Source of the DNA: Candidatus Anstonella stagnisolia
Lineage (GTDB): Archaea; Micrarchaeota; Micrarchaeia; Anstonellales; Anstonellaceae
Assembly: GCA_902384585.1 (NCBI GenBank)
Contig: CABMCJ010000004.1
Location: 448,086-512,085, forward strand
Reading direction: 5' to 3'
DNA length: 64,000 nt
Position 1 is the stretch's first letter. Each line of letters starts with the position of its first letter. Both the position numbers and the translations under genes were made by a program. Positions 4,009 to 63,057 of the stretch are shown here, one piece after another. A model generated the notes under the pieces. It did no database searches, was not told the origin of the DNA, and saw only the letters and a list, made by a program, of their open reading frames with translations.

Positions 4009-5391
4009 CTAATTCTGAGATTCAGATAACATATTTCGCGGAAATATCGAAGGTCTACAGTGGTAATATAAAATTTCTTTAGAACTATTTGCAATTTTAA
4101 TAGCTTGCGCATATGCCGTTTTATGCATAATTGCTGCATCTTTGGAAAGTTTCATATATTCTTGATAATTTCTGATTGTTTTTCTGCAACCGAACAAATA
4201 ATAAATTCTGAGATTACGGATATTCTGTTTAGCTTCAAGAAAAAAATGCATACCGTTAATAAAACCGTCCAAATAGGCTAGTCCTTCGTAATTTTTCTTT
4301 TTGGCTGCTTCTTTTCTGTGTTTATAAACATGCTTTAGAACATTAATTACGTAGCGTTTATCAGAGAATTTGCCACTTTTTTTCCCATTCCGTATCATAC
4401 CAAAAGAATGCAGCAAACCATCGCAATAGAAGGTGGTGAAGACAAGCGAAGGTGTCTGTTTAATATTGCTGGTGGAATTCAATTTATCTATTGCAGATTT
4501 TACTGCGGCATTTGCTTCTTGAATTACGGCAAATCGTTTCTCAGGGATTAGATTGCCTTTTGCAGTCTCAATTTTTTTTAGTTCTTCAAGAAAATATGAT
4601 GCATCAGTGATGATGGTTGTAAGATTCATGCCTTCAAATCTTTTTTTGGAGTCCTCGTCCGTGGTGACTATATACGCTTTTGGAGTTAGCCCTTTCATAT
4701 CAGACTTTAATAGTTTATAGATTCTATTGAAGTCTTCGTCTCCAAATGAATAACCAACAAATAAAATTGTCTTTGTAGCAAGCAGTGTTTTGAGATATCC
4801 GCCAATCACATTGCGCTGTAGATGCCGATAACATTTTTTATAATCTTCTTCGGTAGCTATGATAGAGCCATAGTTTGTAACTGAGCCGTGAAGTTTTAGT
4901 ACTCTTCTTGTTTCGCTATTCCAAAAAACAAAGTCTTCCGGACTTATAAATGGCACAGCCGCGCACTCGCGCTCAAATAAATCGTCCCAATTTGTAGTTA
5001 TTATTTCTTTTATATTATACAAAGTAGAGAGTTGGCGATGAAAACGAACGGCTTGAAGATAGCTCTCGGGGTACATTGCTATACTATCGAAATGTTCTCG
5101 TATGATATTCAGAAGTTTACGACGCCCTTCGTTTCGATTTCGATTGCAAAACATGCTCATTAATTTTGAAAAACTAATATTTTTATTTGAAGGTATTTTC
5201 AACTCGTATCGTACTTGGGCACATAATGAAAGCTGTGATAATCTTTCGGATTCGGTGCTTATGCCTGCTCCTGCAAATATTACTAATTCTTTGTTTTCTA
5301 GTGCATTAACTATATCTTGCGGCATCTTAAATCTGCGCCTGATTCTACACTCATCGCATCCGGGTTCTTCACATTTTTTATGTTCTATCAA
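4009..5391 (-). CDS. SIR2-like domain protein with an uncharacterised C-terminal domain (possible defence effector)
   Basis: ELVIFAGAGIS, EIITTNWDDLFER, VLKLHGSVTN and LFVGYSFGDEDF are SIR2-fold motifs; about 180-aa C-terminal region unrecognised. Confidence 0.85.
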   Translation of the reverse strand: MIEHKKCEEPGCDECRIRRRFKMPQDIVNALENKELVIFAGAGISTESERLSQLSLCAQVRYELKIPSNKNISFSKLMSMFCNRNRNEGRRKLLNIIREHFDSIAMYPESYLQAVRFHRQLSTLYNIKEIITTNWDDLFERECAAVPFISPEDFVFWNSETRRVLKLHGSVTNYGSIIATEEDYKKCYRHLQRNVIGGYLKTLLATKTILFVGYSFGDEDFNRIYKLLKSDMKGLTPKAYIVTTDEDSKKRFEGMNLTTIITDASYFLEELKKIETAKGNLIPEKRFAVIQEANAAVKSAIDKLNSTSNIKQTPSLVFTTFYCDGLLHSFGMIRNGKKSGKFSDKRYVINVLKHVYKHRKEAAKKKNYEGLAYLDGFINGMHFFLEAKQNIRNLRIYYLFGCRKTIRNYQEYMKLSKDAAIMHKTAYAQAIKIANSSKEILYYHCRPSIFPRNMLSESQN

Positions 5392-51488: not shown

Positions 51489-51491
51489 AAG

Positions 51492-51568
51492 TCAGACCGT
51501 CCGCTAGGGGGACAACACTTGGTCAGACGGTCAAAAGAGAGGTCGTTTCCTAGGAAATGAGGGGTGCT
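51492..51568 (+). repeat. 77-bp dispersed repeat, copy A
   Basis: tcagaccgtccgctagggggacaacacttggtcagacggtcaaaagagaggtcgtttcctaggaaatgaggggtgct; 2 mismatches to copy D by eye; contains GACCGTC/GACGGTC inverted repeat and TTTCCTAGGAAA palindrome. Confidence 0.95.
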
Positions 51569-51609
51569 GGCTTGCTCTTTTTGTCAGATGCAGTTTTATT
51601 AGTGGCTGG

Positions 51610-53058: not shown

Positions 53059-53087
53059 AGTAATGTGTATCAGACCGTCCGCTAGGG
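53059..53087 (+). repeat. 77-bp repeat, partial copy B
   Basis: agtaatgtgtatcagaccgtccgctaggg, 29 bp identical to the start of copy D with its upstream flank. Confidence 0.85.
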
Positions 53088-53425
53088 CTGAATTCGTCTG
53101 CCTGAGCTACGAGGTAAAATTGGCAATTAAATTGTTTTCAAAAGAACAGATTGGCAATAAAAGGACTAGGTGTTTTGGGGCTTTTTCTGCGGCTTGTTTC
53201 CGCGCAAATTCTGCGAGGAAACCTAGGAAATTCTTTTGACAGGCGTGGAGTGATGACAGATGCGCACTCTAATGAGAATTCGTTAATCGGGGAGATATAT
53301 CCTATTTAAATTTTACCGTTCATAAAAAGGTAATATAAGTAAATTTGTGGTGAATCTGGCACTGGTCTGACCGATTAGGCAACTGCCAGATAAGCTTCGA
53401 TATTACGTATTTGAGATTGCAAAAG

Positions 53426-55087
53426 ATGCGGGGGAAGGAAATGAGTGGGCTAAAAATCTTAAGAGGGTCAGCCGGCTTTGATGATTTCGCAAAAATTGTC
53501 AGATTGACTCCAGTGGAAAAAACAACGCGGGCTGCTCTGCTGCAGCGATCTTTCATGCCATTCCAGGTCCCAGAGAGTTATGCCCGAACTATAGCCTCAC
53601 TCCCGGAACCAAGCCGAACTCAGATGCTCAATATTGTCTTGCCACCGGAAGGAGAAAGGTTCTTCACCGGAAGATTTGACCCTTATGGGAATAAATTATG
53701 CCGACAGGAAGACCACGCGTTCCTACAACACAAGTATGAAAATACTCTGCTATTTCACGTCGATGATTTTTGCATCGGTAATTGCCAGTTTTGTTTCAAA
53801 GTGAATGAAATACGAACGGAGATCACCTCTAATCTGGATTTAAACCGGAAAATGCGGATTACGCTTGAGTATCTGACAACCAATCCGGGTATCAATAATG
53901 TGTTGGCTACTGGCGGGGACCCTGTGGCATTTCGGAACACCCGGGATTTGATAAAGCTCATTGATCCGTTAATATCCCATCCAAATATACGAGTCGTCAG
54001 ACTAGCAACAAAGGGCTTGGCTTACGCTCCAGAACGGTTCGAGGACGGAGAACTGCTGCAATATCTCAAAGAAGTCAATCGCAGGCCTGGAAAACAGATT
54101 ACCGTGATTGCCCAAATGAATCATCCGGCTGAGTTTACTGAATCAGCAAAAAGTGCCATACGCGCACTACAAGAAGCAGGGGTTCAAATACGGGGGCAGC
54201 CTGCGATTGTTAAGGGAGTAAACGACTCGGTAGAAACTCTGATTGAGCTTCAGAGGGCTTTCGTTGACAACCAAATCGTTTCTTATTATTTGACGGTTTT
54301 CATGCCGGTAAAGGGAGTTGAACAGTACGGATTGCCCTTGGATTGCATCTTTAGAAATGTCGCAGAATCGAAAAGGCACTTGAGTGGGTTGGAAAAGAAG
54401 GGGATTTTGCTAGCATCACATGATTTTGGGAAGCTGGAAATCTGCGGATTCTATCCGTCCCCTGAGCGACCTGAAAAGATTATCCTCAAATGGCATCAGA
54501 TTGAGATGGAACCGTACTTACCGAAGAGCCTTAAAGATAGGGTGCCGACAAGGCCAGAGGATTTGATGATACTTGATTATCGTAAGGGTGAGATGTACTG
54601 CATAGACCATGTGTTCAAAGCAAACAAGCTGCCATATTTTGACTCGGCCGGAAACTTGGTCGAGCCGGAACCGGAAGGGCATATTTCGGGGAATACGCAA
54701 AATATGCAGCCGGAGAGAACGATAAGACAGTATCTGAATGCACTGGAGAGCGGGAGTTACCGCACCATGATTCAGCTGTTCTCATCGGACGCAATTGTTC
54801 ATTCGCCATTGTATGGCGATGTAAACGCAAACGAATACTATTCTGGTCTGTTCAATGACACCACAAGTTCCAAAATCAGCTTTCTCAATATTTTTACTAG
54901 CCAAAATCCATCAAGGGCAGCTGGGCATTTCCGTTACGACTGGACCCTAAAGAATGGGGGCAAAATCTCTTTCCAGTGCGTAGATGTATTTCAGTTTGAT
55001 GAAACTGGTAAAATTAAGGACTTGACAATTATTTATGATACTGCGCCTATCCGGTCTTCTTTCCAGGAAATGAAACAACGCGATTGA
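53426..55087 (+). CDS. KamA-like radical SAM protein with C-terminal SnoaL/NTF2-like domain
   Basis: NTLLFHVDDFCIGNCQFCF (CxxxCxxC), NNVLATGGDPVAF; C-terminus TIRQYLNALESGSYRTMIQLFSSDAIVHSPLYGDVNANEYYSGLF...DVFQFDETGKI. Confidence 0.82.
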   Translation: MRGKEMSGLKILRGSAGFDDFAKIVRLTPVEKTTRAALLQRSFMPFQVPESYARTIASLPEPSRTQMLNIVLPPEGERFFTGRFDPYGNKLCRQEDHAFLQHKYENTLLFHVDDFCIGNCQFCFKVNEIRTEITSNLDLNRKMRITLEYLTTNPGINNVLATGGDPVAFRNTRDLIKLIDPLISHPNIRVVRLATKGLAYAPERFEDGELLQYLKEVNRRPGKQITVIAQMNHPAEFTESAKSAIRALQEAGVQIRGQPAIVKGVNDSVETLIELQRAFVDNQIVSYYLTVFMPVKGVEQYGLPLDCIFRNVAESKRHLSGLEKKGILLASHDFGKLEICGFYPSPERPEKIILKWHQIEMEPYLPKSLKDRVPTRPEDLMILDYRKGEMYCIDHVFKANKLPYFDSAGNLVEPEPEGHISGNTQNMQPERTIRQYLNALESGSYRTMIQLFSSDAIVHSPLYGDVNANEYYSGLFNDTTSSKISFLNIFTSQNPSRAAGHFRYDWTLKNGGKISFQCVDVFQFDETGKIKDLTIIYDTAPIRSSFQEMKQRD

Positions 55088-55190: not shown

Positions 55191-55224
55191 CCTTTTTCAT
55201 GTCACTCTGAGGTAGTAATTCACA

Positions 55225-55301
55225 TCAGACCGTCCGCTAGGGGGGCAACACTTGGTCAGACGGTCAAAACACAGGTCGTTTCCTAGGAAATGAGTGGTAT
55301 G
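55225..55301 (+). repeat. 77-bp dispersed repeat, copy C
   Basis: Same length as A and D with about 5 mismatches to D; abuts the stop codon of the 55303-56853 gene. Confidence 0.95.
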
Positions 55302-55302
55302 C

Positions 55303-56853
55303 CTAGTGCCGCAAATCAAATATGCTGAACCCAAGGGATTTTTTCCTTGCAATCTCCCCTTCAATCTGCGCAAGAAGGGCGTCTTTAATCAAGGAATATT
55401 TGCCTCGCTCCAGTTGCGTATTGCCTATGCTGTTTCTAGCACCTTTGAGGTTGAAGCAAAACATGCAGTCTGTGAGGGATTCTGAATTGTGGCAAAAGTA
55501 AGAATCCGAGCACTTGTTGCACGAGTCTAATTCAAGGCACCTGTTGAGATAGAGTGAATTGTAGCATTTCATAGCAAACTGCGATTCCAGTATCCGGTGG
55601 CAGCCATAGACGTATTTTGAATTGAGCGCCATGGAGCAGACGCCAACGTTCTCGCAGTTGACCCCGTCAAAACCATTGTATGAGTTCACTGCGTTAAAGG
55701 CATGGGGGAATCGGATAAGGTTGGAGTTTTGGCCGCCCATAAGCTCAATGGTGAAAAACGCCAGCGGACTTGCAGCCTCAAGCAAGCCATTCAAATTCCC
55801 GCGAATCTCGGCATGTTTCTTTCCCGCTTCAAACGATTCGTAGGACGAAACCAGCCTGGATTTTGGAAAATCCTGCATCAACGGGATGTTTTTTGGGAGA
55901 AATGTAATGGCGCCAAACGGGCTTTTGACTTCCTGCAAGGAAACAGTATGCATCGCAAGCCAGCGTTCGTAATCATTGATGTTTGAAGGAGTTGATTTCA
56001 ACAATATCCTGTGCGTTGCTGCAAAGCCTTTTTCGATGGCATCCATGCTTATGCCTGCCGCAGGAAGTCGCGCAGCAATTCCGGTCTGCGTTCCCATAGG
56101 GGGCGCATTGAAAAGCTCGGAGATGGATGGGAGCCTCTTCTTTCTTTCAAGCTCTTCTGCCACTTCCTCAAGCAGCTTTGCCTTCAATTTCCGATAATCC
56201 TCCGGAGGAAGCGGGGTGTTGGCTATGCACCGGCTTTTATTTTGCTGCCCGAAGCAGAACAGCATCTCGTGGCATCCGATGATGTTGTTGCAGAAATAGC
56301 AGTCGCTGCAATAGTCCGTTACTGAACATTCAAAGCCGCGCTTATGCCCGAAAGTTGCAACGCTTTTAACCAGGAATTCGGCTTGACCAGACGCCCCAGA
56401 GCCAAAAACATACTGGCTGTTCTTGCGTATCATGAATGAGGAGTCAACGTATCTGGATTCCTCTATGTTTGTTGAATTCCTTACGTAATGCGAATCCATC
56501 ACTATGTCAGATTGCTCTACAAACGTGCTGTTCCCAAGATATCTGTTGCCCGTGTATTCGCATTTTTCCCTTATTGCATTTATTATTGAGTCTATGTCCT
56601 TCAGCTGGTTTATTCCCAAACCGTAATCTTTGTTTCCCTGCGATTCGTCCGCGCGCACGAAAGCCGCATCCTTTCCATACGCATCCATCGCTATTAGAAC
56701 ATCCTTTCCTGATACGCAGGATTTCCTAAGCGCCCGCTCAGGCAGCGACAGCGCCATCCATTTTTCATATTCCTTCAAATCGCCTATCTCTTTGCCGAAC
56801 AGAATCTTGCATGTTTTTTTCCATGCCCCATCTAGTTTTTCGTCAAGTTCCAC
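55303..56853 (-). CDS. Cys-rich, internally duplicated repeat protein (paralog 3 of 3)
   Basis: LDGAWKKTCKILFGKEIGDLKEYEKWM, CHEMLFCFGQQNKSRCIANTPLPPEDY, LTDCMFCFNLKGARNSIGNTQLERGKY; GTG start. Confidence 0.8.
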   Translation of the reverse strand: MELDEKLDGAWKKTCKILFGKEIGDLKEYEKWMALSLPERALRKSCVSGKDVLIAMDAYGKDAAFVRADESQGNKDYGLGINQLKDIDSIINAIREKCEYTGNRYLGNSTFVEQSDIVMDSHYVRNSTNIEESRYVDSSFMIRKNSQYVFGSGASGQAEFLVKSVATFGHKRGFECSVTDYCSDCYFCNNIIGCHEMLFCFGQQNKSRCIANTPLPPEDYRKLKAKLLEEVAEELERKKRLPSISELFNAPPMGTQTGIAARLPAAGISMDAIEKGFAATHRILLKSTPSNINDYERWLAMHTVSLQEVKSPFGAITFLPKNIPLMQDFPKSRLVSSYESFEAGKKHAEIRGNLNGLLEAASPLAFFTIELMGGQNSNLIRFPHAFNAVNSYNGFDGVNCENVGVCSMALNSKYVYGCHRILESQFAMKCYNSLYLNRCLELDSCNKCSDSYFCHNSESLTDCMFCFNLKGARNSIGNTQLERGKYSLIKDALLAQIEGEIARKKSLGFSIFDLRH

Positions 56854-56925: not shown

Positions 56926-56959
56926 CCATCCTTACGTGAGTCTGTCGCAGTAATGTGTA

Positions 56960-57036
56960 TCAGACCGTCCGCTAGGGGGGCAACACTTGGTCAGACGGTC
57001 AAAAGACAGGTCGTTTCCTAGGAAATGAGGGGTGCT
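56960..57036 (+). repeat. 77-bp dispersed repeat, copy D
   Basis: tcagaccgtccgctaggggggcaacacttggtcagacggtcaaaagacaggtcgtttcctaggaaatgaggggtgct; runs into the stop codon of the 57035-58489 gene. Confidence 0.95.
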
Positions 57037-58489
57037 AAGGTGATAAAGGTCGCATTGGGCGCTTTTTGAAGATGCCTACTTTTGGTCCTAAGTGCCCGAC
57101 TACAGTATTCGGATATTTGAGCAGAGTAATAAATTTCCATATATCAAATCCTGCATCAGAAAAGTTTACTCCCAATGCTAATACAAACAGATAATCTATG
57201 GAAGGCATAATTGTGGCAAGCAAAATTGCTAGAATTGATATCAAAATCACAGGGGATATTGTTATTAGTGCGCTCTGGTTTCTCGGGTAAATGCCGGTAT
57301 CTTCTACGCCAAATGGCGGAAACGATTTTAAAAGGCGAAATCTTGGTTTACCACCAAAAACACAAAACATTACGTAATGCGTTGCTTCGTGTATCGGGTA
57401 GATTAACAAACCAAATAGTAGAAGTGATGCGGACGGACTAAAGGGCAGGCTCAATATTTTGCTTAGAATTGTTGGGCAGACAAAAAAAGAGATAATGAGG
57501 AATACAGATACTGGGCTAAGATACCATGCAATCTGATGCATCCAAGATAATTCTTTTGTAGCGTCTATCCCACGAATAAAATCATGTGGGTCTCGGATTC
57601 TTTCAAACCATCCTGCTGAACTGTCTATCGTTTCAATTTTTTCTTTATATGGTAAAAGTTTTTCTTTGAGATATTTGTCATTGCTGTCTTTTTTCATTAC
57701 GCTACTTCCTATTATTATAATTTTATCGCTACTTCTGACTGCGTTCATAAATACGTCCCAGATGGATTTATACGGTTCTTGAGAAACTTGCTGTTCTTTA
57801 GTGGTGCCAGGATAAACTATTGCGTTTGAAAATTCAGATTGGGAAGTAAAACGAGGATAGGCTTCTATCTCTAGATTCGGTGGTCTTGGAAAGCCAATTA
57901 AACCAGGCTTGTGCCAACCAAAAGAGCCATGCAGTTTTAGTAATTCTGGAGAGCCCGGATTAATTGAAAGGGTTTCCATACCCATGATTCTTGTTGCAGG
58001 CAAACCATAATTTATGCTGCTATACTGTTGCAAGATTGAGCGGTCCAATAGTATATCATAGTTCAAAGACGCCATCACATCTCCTTTCTTCCAAACATGC
58101 TGCAAGAAAAAATTGTGTCGCCTTGGCTCTATAATTTCTGATTTTTTCAAAAGTCCATATAGACCGACAAGTATTGCATCGCGTTCGTGATTGTTAATTG
58201 GAACTACGAGACATTTTTTTGCCTGTGTTGCGCAATCGTATATTTCCTCAAAATTATTCGGGTTGGAAAAATCGTTTTTATTAGCTGAGATAAAGTCGTG
58301 AAGGAAATCTAGACTTGGTTCATAATTATGCAGTATTGCGCCGGGGTTTTTTAGTTCCTCTAGTCTTTCAATGGATGTTATGTCGGACGTTTTTAGAAGT
58401 AAGATTCTTTGTAGCACTTGCGAACCTAATGGAAGCTCATGGCACTCGGCATAGCTTGCACCACTGCCAAATATGTAAAGTGTTGTCAA
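57035..58489 (-). CDS. SIR2-like domain fused to a membrane zincin (DUF3267-like)
   Basis: N-terminus LYIFGSGASYAECHELPLGSQVLQRIL, ASLNYDILLDRSI, LLKLHGSFGW; C-terminus LIYPIHEATHYVMFCVFGGKPRF (HExxH in a hydrophobic region) with YPRNQSALITISPVILISILAIL and NFSDAGFDIWKFITLL. Confidence 0.82.
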   Translation of the reverse strand: MTTLYIFGSGASYAECHELPLGSQVLQRILLLKTSDITSIERLEELKNPGAILHNYEPSLDFLHDFISANKNDFSNPNNFEEIYDCATQAKKCLVVPINNHERDAILVGLYGLLKKSEIIEPRRHNFFLQHVWKKGDVMASLNYDILLDRSILQQYSSINYGLPATRIMGMETLSINPGSPELLKLHGSFGWHKPGLIGFPRPPNLEIEAYPRFTSQSEFSNAIVYPGTTKEQQVSQEPYKSIWDVFMNAVRSSDKIIIIGSSVMKKDSNDKYLKEKLLPYKEKIETIDSSAGWFERIRDPHDFIRGIDATKELSWMHQIAWYLSPVSVFLIISFFVCPTILSKILSLPFSPSASLLLFGLLIYPIHEATHYVMFCVFGGKPRFRLLKSFPPFGVEDTGIYPRNQSALITISPVILISILAILLATIMPSIDYLFVLALGVNFSDAGFDIWKFITLLKYPNTVVGHLGPKVGIFKKRPMRPLSP

Positions 58490-59811: not shown

Positions 59812-59880
59812 AATCCCACTAAGTTGAGATTTTATCAGAAGAAGAATAAAACCTTTTGTTATTGTGGGGAAACTGGAGAA

Positions 59881-59913
59881 CACCCCTCATTTCCGCAGGA
59901 TATAGACACTTTC
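59881..59913 (-). repeat. Inverted, divergent end of the dispersed repeat, copy E
   Basis: cacccctcatttccgcaggatatagacactttc; 31/33 identical to copy F. Confidence 0.85.
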
Positions 59914-61373: not shown

Positions 61374-61592
61374 GAGACCACAAATTTTTCTAAATGTTAC
61401 GCTGGAGTATCTATGAGGCAGGTAATTTGTTTTGCTCTAAATGTTAATATTGGCAACAAATAATTAAACTGTTTCGGTGTAGATGGCGAGGGCGTGGTTA
61501 CTCAAAATATTGACACCCCGAAGAAATTCAAAACTTCTTCTACTGATGCCAAGATGGGCACGGAAACTTTTACGGTCAACAATAAGCCTTAA

Positions 61593-61625
61593 CGCCCCTC
61601 ATTTCCGCAGAATATAGACACTTTC
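61593..61625 (-). repeat. Inverted, divergent end of the dispersed repeat, copy F
   Basis: cgcccctcatttccgcagaatatagacactttc; with flank ccttaacgcccctcatttcc it matches the reverse complement of the copy D end (ccttagcacccctcatttcc). Confidence 0.85.
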
Positions 61626-61677: not shown

Positions 61678-62532
61678 ATGGAAACGAAATATTCTGTTGT
61701 AATTGGGGATGCGCGCAACATGGCGGAGCTGCCGGATGAAAGCGTGCAGCTTGTCGTAACAAGCCCGCCCTACTTTAATGTAAAAGACTACGGGGACGAT
61801 GACGCGAACATTGGCGCAATAGACGACTATGTTTCCTATCTTGGCGCGGTTGAGGCTGTTTTTAGGGAATGCTACCGCGTGCTGGAGGATGGAAGGTACT
61901 GCTGCGTGAATATTTCTGACGTAATTTCAGGAGGCAGGAAATATCCGATTCCCTTCCACTATGTTTTCATGCTTGAGCGCTCCGGCTTCATTTACAGGGA
62001 CAATATAATTTGGAAAAAGCCGGACGGAATAGGGCAGAATGCAAGGAGCGGGGCTGCAAAGCGCTTCGGGGTGCTAATGCAAAACCCCTATCCAATGTAT
62101 TATTACCCAAACAACATTTACGAGCACATCCTCATTTTCAGAAAAGGCGTTTTCAATTTCAGGAAGCCGACCATGCAGCAGAAAGTAGGGGCAATGCTGG
62201 ACATAGAGCAGGCAAAGAAGCGCTGGAATACCGATATTTGGACAATGGCTGCGGCAACCGTGAACCAGTACACTAAAGTGCATCCGGCAATGTTCCCTGA
62301 GGAATTGCCTGAGGGCTTAATCCGGCTTTACACTTTCAAGGGCGAGACCGTTCTGGACCCTTTTCTTGGCAGCGGCACAACGCTAAAGGTAGCTCGGGCG
62401 CTATCGCGCGGCTGCATAGGCTACGAGATAAACCCGGACTATCTGCCACTGATTAGGAAAAAGGCGGGCTTTGACTTGGAAGGAAAACTGGATGTAAAAT
62501 ACCAAGGAGGTGGTAGGAATGAAAGGGGCTAG
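61678..62532 (+). CDS. DNA methyltransferase (N4-cytosine/N6-adenine, beta-type motif order)
   Basis: LVVTSPPYFNVKDYGD (motif IV) and ETVLDPFLGSGTTLKVA (motif I) near the C-terminus. Confidence 0.92.
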   Translation: METKYSVVIGDARNMAELPDESVQLVVTSPPYFNVKDYGDDDANIGAIDDYVSYLGAVEAVFRECYRVLEDGRYCCVNISDVISGGRKYPIPFHYVFMLERSGFIYRDNIIWKKPDGIGQNARSGAAKRFGVLMQNPYPMYYYPNNIYEHILIFRKGVFNFRKPTMQQKVGAMLDIEQAKKRWNTDIWTMAAATVNQYTKVHPAMFPEELPEGLIRLYTFKGETVLDPFLGSGTTLKVARALSRGCIGYEINPDYLPLIRKKAGFDLEGKLDVKYQGGGRNERG

Positions 62533-62836
62533 GGCAAAACAAATCCTAGCCCCGCTCATGCTTTTTGCATTGGCGGGGTTAGCGAGTGCCGAGCTTGTTA
62601 TTCCGGCAGACCAGCCTGTTTGCAGGCTGTACGGGATAATACAGGTGCTTGGCACGGTGGCGGGAGTCCTGATAGCCGCCTATGCAGGGTTCATCCTTGC
62701 GAGCAGCAACGACATAAACGAGCGCAATACGGCAAAGCAGCTTTTGGGAGGGGTAGTCCTCGGGCTGATAATAATCTGGATTGCGCCGCTGCTTGTGAAG
62801 AGCCTTGTTGGGGTTGCTGACGTGTGTGGGTGGTAG
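62519..62836 (+). CDS. VirB2/TrbC-like small membrane protein
   Basis: Signal-like N-terminus then VCRLYGIIQVLGTVAGVLIAAYAGFILASS...AKQLLGGVVLGLIIIWIAPLLVKSLV. Confidence 0.65.
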   Translation: MKGARAKQILAPLMLFALAGLASAELVIPADQPVCRLYGIIQVLGTVAGVLIAAYAGFILASSNDINERNTAKQLLGGVVLGLIIIWIAPLLVKSLVGVADVCGW

Positions 62837-63057
62837 GCTTGGACTTGGTTGGGATAGCCGATGCCATACGAGCCATTGCGGTTTTCTTTGCCGTGATGGT
62901 TTGCGCATACGCGGGGCTGGTGCTCATGACGAGCAGGAACCCGCTGCAGAGGGCGGAGTGGAAGGAGATAGTCATAGGGGTTTTCGTGGGGCTATCAGTG
63001 ATTTTCATTGCGCCTATCATATCCGCGCTACTGAGCGGAGGGAATTATTGCAGGTGA
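62824..63057 (+). CDS. Second VirB2/TrbC-like small membrane protein
   Basis: IRAIAVFFAVMVCAYAGLVLMTSRNPLQRAEWKEIVIGVFVGLSVIFIAPIISALL; same two-TM plan as the previous ORF. Confidence 0.6.
   Translation: MWVVGLDLVGIADAIRAIAVFFAVMVCAYAGLVLMTSRNPLQRAEWKEIVIGVFVGLSVIFIAPIISALLSGGNYCR

Follow-up and report, generated by a model that had tools for sequence, protein, structure and literature searches.

The archaeal genome analysed here encodes, in a single open reading frame, a 484-residue protein that joins a SIR2-like domain to a four-helix intramembrane metalloprotease domain of the DUF3267 family. The SIR2-membrane protease architecture is without precedent in everything searched, and rests on one sequence. 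Its gene lies in a window of 64,000 nt (the whole stretch of DNA analysed), on a 921-kb contig of a 1.33-Mb genome in six contigs, whose archaeal nature is indicated by split RNA polymerase subunits, aIF2-alpha, a RuBisCO large chain and an archaeal SSU rRNA. We tentatively favour a reading of the protein as a SIR2 effector stationed at the membrane, where an intramembrane protease is coupled to it.

One reading frame with two catalytic sets

The genes and domains concerned are as follows.

57035..58489, minus strand: SIR2-DUF3267 fusion gene, 484 aa, TTG start, single open reading frame
57560..58489, minus strand: SIR2-like domain, residues ~1-310, with GSGAS (8), N143, H187 and GSS (261)
57035..57559, minus strand: DUF3267 four-TM metalloprotease domain of the S2P clan, residues ~311-484, with H367EATH371, D449 and P460
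58510..59811 (or to 59883), minus strand: two-TM protein of 433 aa with a ~370-aa ectodomain, possible partner

A preliminary description of this DNA had placed SIR2 motifs and a HEATH motif in one 484-aa frame, and this proved correct at the motifs it quoted: GSGAS starts at residue 8, LNYD at 142, KLHGS at 185 and HEATH at 367. Both catalytic sets are present, N143 and H187 for SIR2 and H367EATH371, D449 and P460 for S2P/DUF3267. The frame contains no internal stop, and the linker of ~40 residues is open throughout. The two halves of the gene have the same composition (GC/GC3 of 38.4/32.9% and 38.9/34.3%); the core genes of the genome have 51-54% GC, and the block from 56.9 to 59.9 kb has 38-44%. 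Since the halves are equal in GC and differ from the core genes, the fusion gene was probably acquired and is probably a single unit.

These observations bear on the alternative that the fusion is accidental, that is, a chance or recent event without selected joint function, or an assembly or consensus error joining two genes. The open linker, the equal GC and GC3 of the halves and the length of the contig all speak against it, as does the fact that the linker meets TM1 exactly where a stand-alone DUF3267 protein (from genome G085) starts its own TM1. An accident would be in keeping with the singleton status of the fusion, no second example of which appeared in any search, and with the edge of the gene lying on a repeat, a rearrangement-prone setting. 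We consider it improbable.

Affiliation of the two halves

The N-terminal half (residues ~1-300) can be assigned securely, on sequence grounds, to the SIR2-like domains; its kin are the NADases that form the SIR2 component in SIR2-HerA (Nezha) systems. The Pfam SIR2_2 match of the protein taken alone is sub-threshold (E 0.037). The assignment is secure in spite of this because the PADLOC SIR2 models match the protein at E 6.6e-7; because N143, H187, G261 and S263 are invariant in an alignment with eight SIR2 relatives, found by tblastn and a scan of GTDB genomes; because the profile of this eight-relative family matches SIR2 chains of SIR2-HerA (8yhx, E 8e-12; 8w9l, 2e-10; 8j4u, 2e-7); and because the best 18 Foldseek matches are all SIR2-HerA entries, the query being a low-confidence AlphaFold2 model (pLDDT 49.7, with a Rossmann core better than the rest). 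The SIR2-type N-terminal half proposed in the preliminary description is thus upheld. When equated by motif, N143 and H187 occupy the positions of N168 and H227 in Vibrio cholerae Nezha, where N168A and H227A abolish immunity (PMC11559045). The domain is probably an NAD+-cleaving enzyme of the SIR2-HerA class.

The stand-alone SIR2 relatives, including L044, L046, L047 and the Rhizobium protein WP_130788551.1, show ~22-28% identity over the SIR2 core. They share with the fusion the invariant N, H and GxS; the eight from genomes have neither a TM segment nor an HExxH, whereas the fusion has both. The nearest archaeal SIR2 relative belongs to a class-level relative (G280), where it sits in a restriction-modification locus: a DUF262-type protein (NsnA-model), a DNA methyltransferase and Vsr-like genes adjoin it (Vsr and DUF262 being partly recognised by eye).

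The C-terminal half (residues ~310-484) is, judging from its sequence, a four-helix DUF3267 intramembrane metalloprotease of the S2P clan, with predicted proteolytic activity. It matches PF11667 ('Putative zincin peptidase') at residues 360-462 with 53.5 bits, compared to a curated cut-off of 27.1 (E 3.4e-14), and four hydrophobic segments, located by hydropathy only, lie at ~319, 345, 404 and 423; the suggestion of a DUF3267-like membrane zincin is borne out by this match, the HExxH and these segments. The stand-alone relative from G085 is 28% identical, and its spacing from H to D (H63 to D145) is the same as in the fusion, 82 residues. H367EATH371, D449 and P460 are kept in an alignment with G085 and bacterial DUF3267 members; the distal Asp was unevenly placed by MAFFT, and D449 was assigned because the conserved Pro follows it at a constant interval, 11-12 residues in L003, L056, L058, L059 and the fusion. 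A 2026 preprint describes TmcP, a DUF3267 protein, as an S2P-clan intramembrane protease that requires H68 and D158 and loses processing altogether when its His and distal Asp are mutated together; four TM helices are present in 88% of family members, and cleavage is promoted by TmcE, a partner protein with two TMHs (PMC13252029).

Three other readings of the protein were weighed. In the first, the protease is the output and the SIR2-like domain is an NAD+/ADP-ribose-binding sensor that gates proteolysis of a membrane signal protein. The full set of S2P/DUF3267 catalytic residues and the two-TM ectodomain protein encoded directly upstream would fit such a scheme; a pure sensor, however, needs neither the catalytic Asn nor the catalytic His of SIR2, and both are kept, so that this reading appears unlikely. 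In the second, the DUF3267 part is a mere membrane anchor for the SIR2 NADase. Other effectors do use TM helices in this way, as in TM-macro ThsA, where they are an anchor or a membrane-acting part (PMC11204291); yet decay would be expected of an unused active site, and HExxH, the distal Asp and the Pro are intact, which makes the absence of any proteolytic role quite unlikely. The third departs from defence altogether, and takes the protein for a maturation enzyme of surface proteins or peptides with an NAD-dependent regulatory domain. It has a model in TmcP, a DUF3267 protease characterised in the literature, which processes a membrane RiPP precursor in TMcin synthesis (PMC13252029), but no transporter or disulfide enzyme was recognised in the annotated flanks, and we regard this last reading as very unlikely.

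Compared with known systems, the fusion shares with SIR2-HerA its SIR2 subclass, the catalytic Asn and His, and the best fold and profile match. It differs in that its C-terminal half is a membrane protease and that HerA does not adjoin it: the DUF87 match closest to it, at a distance of ~9 kb, is an ATPase of the TraG/VirB4 type, and the nearest proteins of HerA size lie ~145-150 kb from the gene, the ~512-aa archaeal HerA, at ~150 kb, having counterparts in relatives. Thoeris ThsA (SIR2-SLOG or TM-macro) is likewise a SIR2 NADase or a membrane-borne NAD-linked effector, but the fusion has no SLOG or macro domain, DUF3267 forming its C-terminal half, and no TIR/ThsB gene was present among its annotated flanks. 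With TmcP and the DUF3267 proteases it has in common the four TM helices, the HExxH, the distal Asp and the Pro. Set beside the TmcP/TmcE pair of TMcin, the picture is mixed: the neighbouring protein has two TMHs but also a ~370-aa ectodomain, and no DUF3267 was detected in G025 and G088, which encode relatives of it. No known defence partner (HerA, TIR/ThsB, pAgo) adjoins the gene. Because the partner genes are absent, the fusion falls outside both SIR2-HerA and Thoeris; it may work like them.

A second SIR2 protein is encoded in the window at 4009-5391 (minus strand, 35% GC), alone between the genes for aIF2-alpha and superoxide dismutase. It matches SIR2_2 at E 5e-25 and the PADLOC ThsA model at E 8e-25, and its C-terminal ~180 aa have no Pfam match. 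BLASTP detected no homology between it and the fusion.

Distribution, neighbour and accessory surroundings

A second SIR2-DUF3267 fusion was sought in several collections. None was found in 59 relatives with the whole protein as query, nor across 301 genomes of the phylum with the DUF3267 or the SIR2 domain as query; of the weak DUF3267 matches in the phylum, those whose frames measure ~370 aa mostly resemble site-2 proteases, as judged by length and score. None was found either in GTDB genome contigs, viral contigs, or plasmid or phage collections; the GTDB-contig scan used short peptide patterns, which detect close relatives only, so distant fusions could escape it. In 399 bacterial genomes from the phylum of L051, a Thermoanaerobacteraceae MAG, the frames with a DUF3267 match over the cut-off never exceeded 301 aa, too short for an additional SIR2 domain. 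No literature joining 'SIR2' and 'DUF3267' was found. The novelty suspected in the preliminary description has thus held, no second fusion, described or sequenced, being present in the collections searched. It had also considered that homologs might reveal two separate genes: stand-alone relatives of each half do exist, but they come from separate genomes and in no case adjoin each other, which does not imply an artefactual fusion.

The fusion gene begins 20 nt behind the stop of its co-directional neighbour, an operon-like arrangement. The neighbour protein has no Pfam family over the cut-off, no match in viral contigs or plasmids, and a structure model of low confidence. Among 300 other genomes in the phylum, only three encode a relative of it, and one of these matches is weak. 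Two of the carriers, G025 and G088, have no detected DUF3267, and the neighbour is therefore not an obligate partner of the protease. In G025 the gene after the relative has a sub-threshold match to NERD (nuclease-related), and a phage-type integrase is near; at this locus (L060, G025:C37, 1577-5734) the relative overlaps the 542-aa protein carrying the NERD match, whose N-terminus resembles a zinc ribbon. Adjoining genes are a PadR-like regulator and an ORF resembling PemK/MazF (recognised by eye). In G088 the relative adjoins HerA. A link to HerA by this route was rejected, since that protein matches the ~512-aa HerA of G000, G001 and G025 and is probably a housekeeping one.

A locus-restricted repeat flanks the two-gene unit, with copies at the following places.

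51490-51569, plus strand: repeat copy
53069-53093, plus strand: partial repeat copy
55223-55302, plus strand: repeat copy
56958-57040 (or 56959..57037), plus strand: ~80-nt copy bordering the fusion gene on its 3' side, the stop codon of the gene lying on the repeat edge
59879..59913, minus strand: short copy (GGAAATGAGGGG half) just upstream of the two-gene unit, in inverted orientation
61591-61625, minus strand: repeat copy
C4:523552 of the genome: repeat copy

The repeat has the form TCAGACCGTCCGCTAGG ... CGTTTCCTAGGAAATGAGGGG, and its right half is palindromic; it is intergenic, and across 24 kb each gene unit has roughly one copy. The 1.33-Mb genome contains five exact copies of the 12-mer GGAAATGAGGGG, common to the ~80-nt repeat and the shorter form, and every one of them lies within 24 kb of the fusion region; the reversed control pattern has 0. 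Genomes of genus g2 carry related copies. Such copies are present in G009, G013, G016, G018 and G019, and the one in G013 (C49) lies near a gene that by eye resembles a tyrosine recombinase. The repeat has no Rfam match. Integron attC sites carry the conserved boxes RYYYAAC/GTTRRRY. Identity with attC was rejected, the boxes of the repeat being unlike these and its single-strand folding being no better than that of shuffles. Site-specific recombination or a cassette array in archaea is possible, and the repeat-flanked region looks like an accessory stretch built by some site-related process.

Other genes of the surroundings deserve mention. Encoded at 53411-55087 (plus strand) is a Radical-SAM-like protein that carries a SnoaL_2 domain at its C-terminus, an unusual pairing; its Radical_SAM match is below the curated cut-off. 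A 516-aa protein without Pfam match is encoded at 55303-56853 (minus strand), and its family has several partial DNA matches in the genome and in relatives. T4SS pilin genes begin ~3 kb beyond the neighbour (62510-63057), and past the end of the window lie a TraG-like ATPase, Orc1/Cdc6 and a type III R-M system. Taken together, the T4SS pilin-like genes, TraG/VirB4-type ATPase, Orc1/Cdc6 and type III R-M genes (window 61678-63057 and genome C4:510000-529000, L063) probably represent an integrated element of conjugative type, here in an archaeon with a small genome.

Proposed mode of action and significance

The loop between TM2 and TM3 and the C-terminal tail of the fusion are rich in Lys/Arg. 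By a positive-inside reading, this would put the SIR2 domain on the cytoplasmic side, the side on which NAD+ is found. The DUF3267 protease would anchor it there and would most likely serve as sensor or trigger, cutting or binding a membrane-protein substrate, with the two-TM ectodomain neighbour as a candidate gate or substrate. Perturbation of the envelope, by infection or by a mobile element, would switch on or release the SIR2 domain, and the resulting NAD+ depletion would halt the cell.

By analogy, a role as antiviral suicide or defence effector is plausible, given the anti-phage NADase subclass, the atypical GC, the accessory stretch with its mobile-element and R-M genes, and the R-M locus of G280. 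A bolder proposal is that the fusion is the first of a new effector class, archaeal and carried in a site-flanked accessory array, which unites an S2P-clan protease and a SIR2 NADase in one molecule and in which proteolysis of an envelope sensor gates NAD+ depletion; we hold this to be rather unlikely.

SIR2 NADases are established abortive-infection effectors. Their known triggers are, to our knowledge, all cytosolic: phage proteins, nucleotides, HerA and guides. Were SIR2 activity coupled to the intramembrane protease through their covalent link, sensing of the envelope would suggest itself as a trigger. Each active site offers a clean pair of residues, so that mutants can test the coupling of SIR2 and protease directly. 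As far as we know, defence in small-genome archaea is poorly described, and the fusion would extend SIR2-based defence to these organisms.
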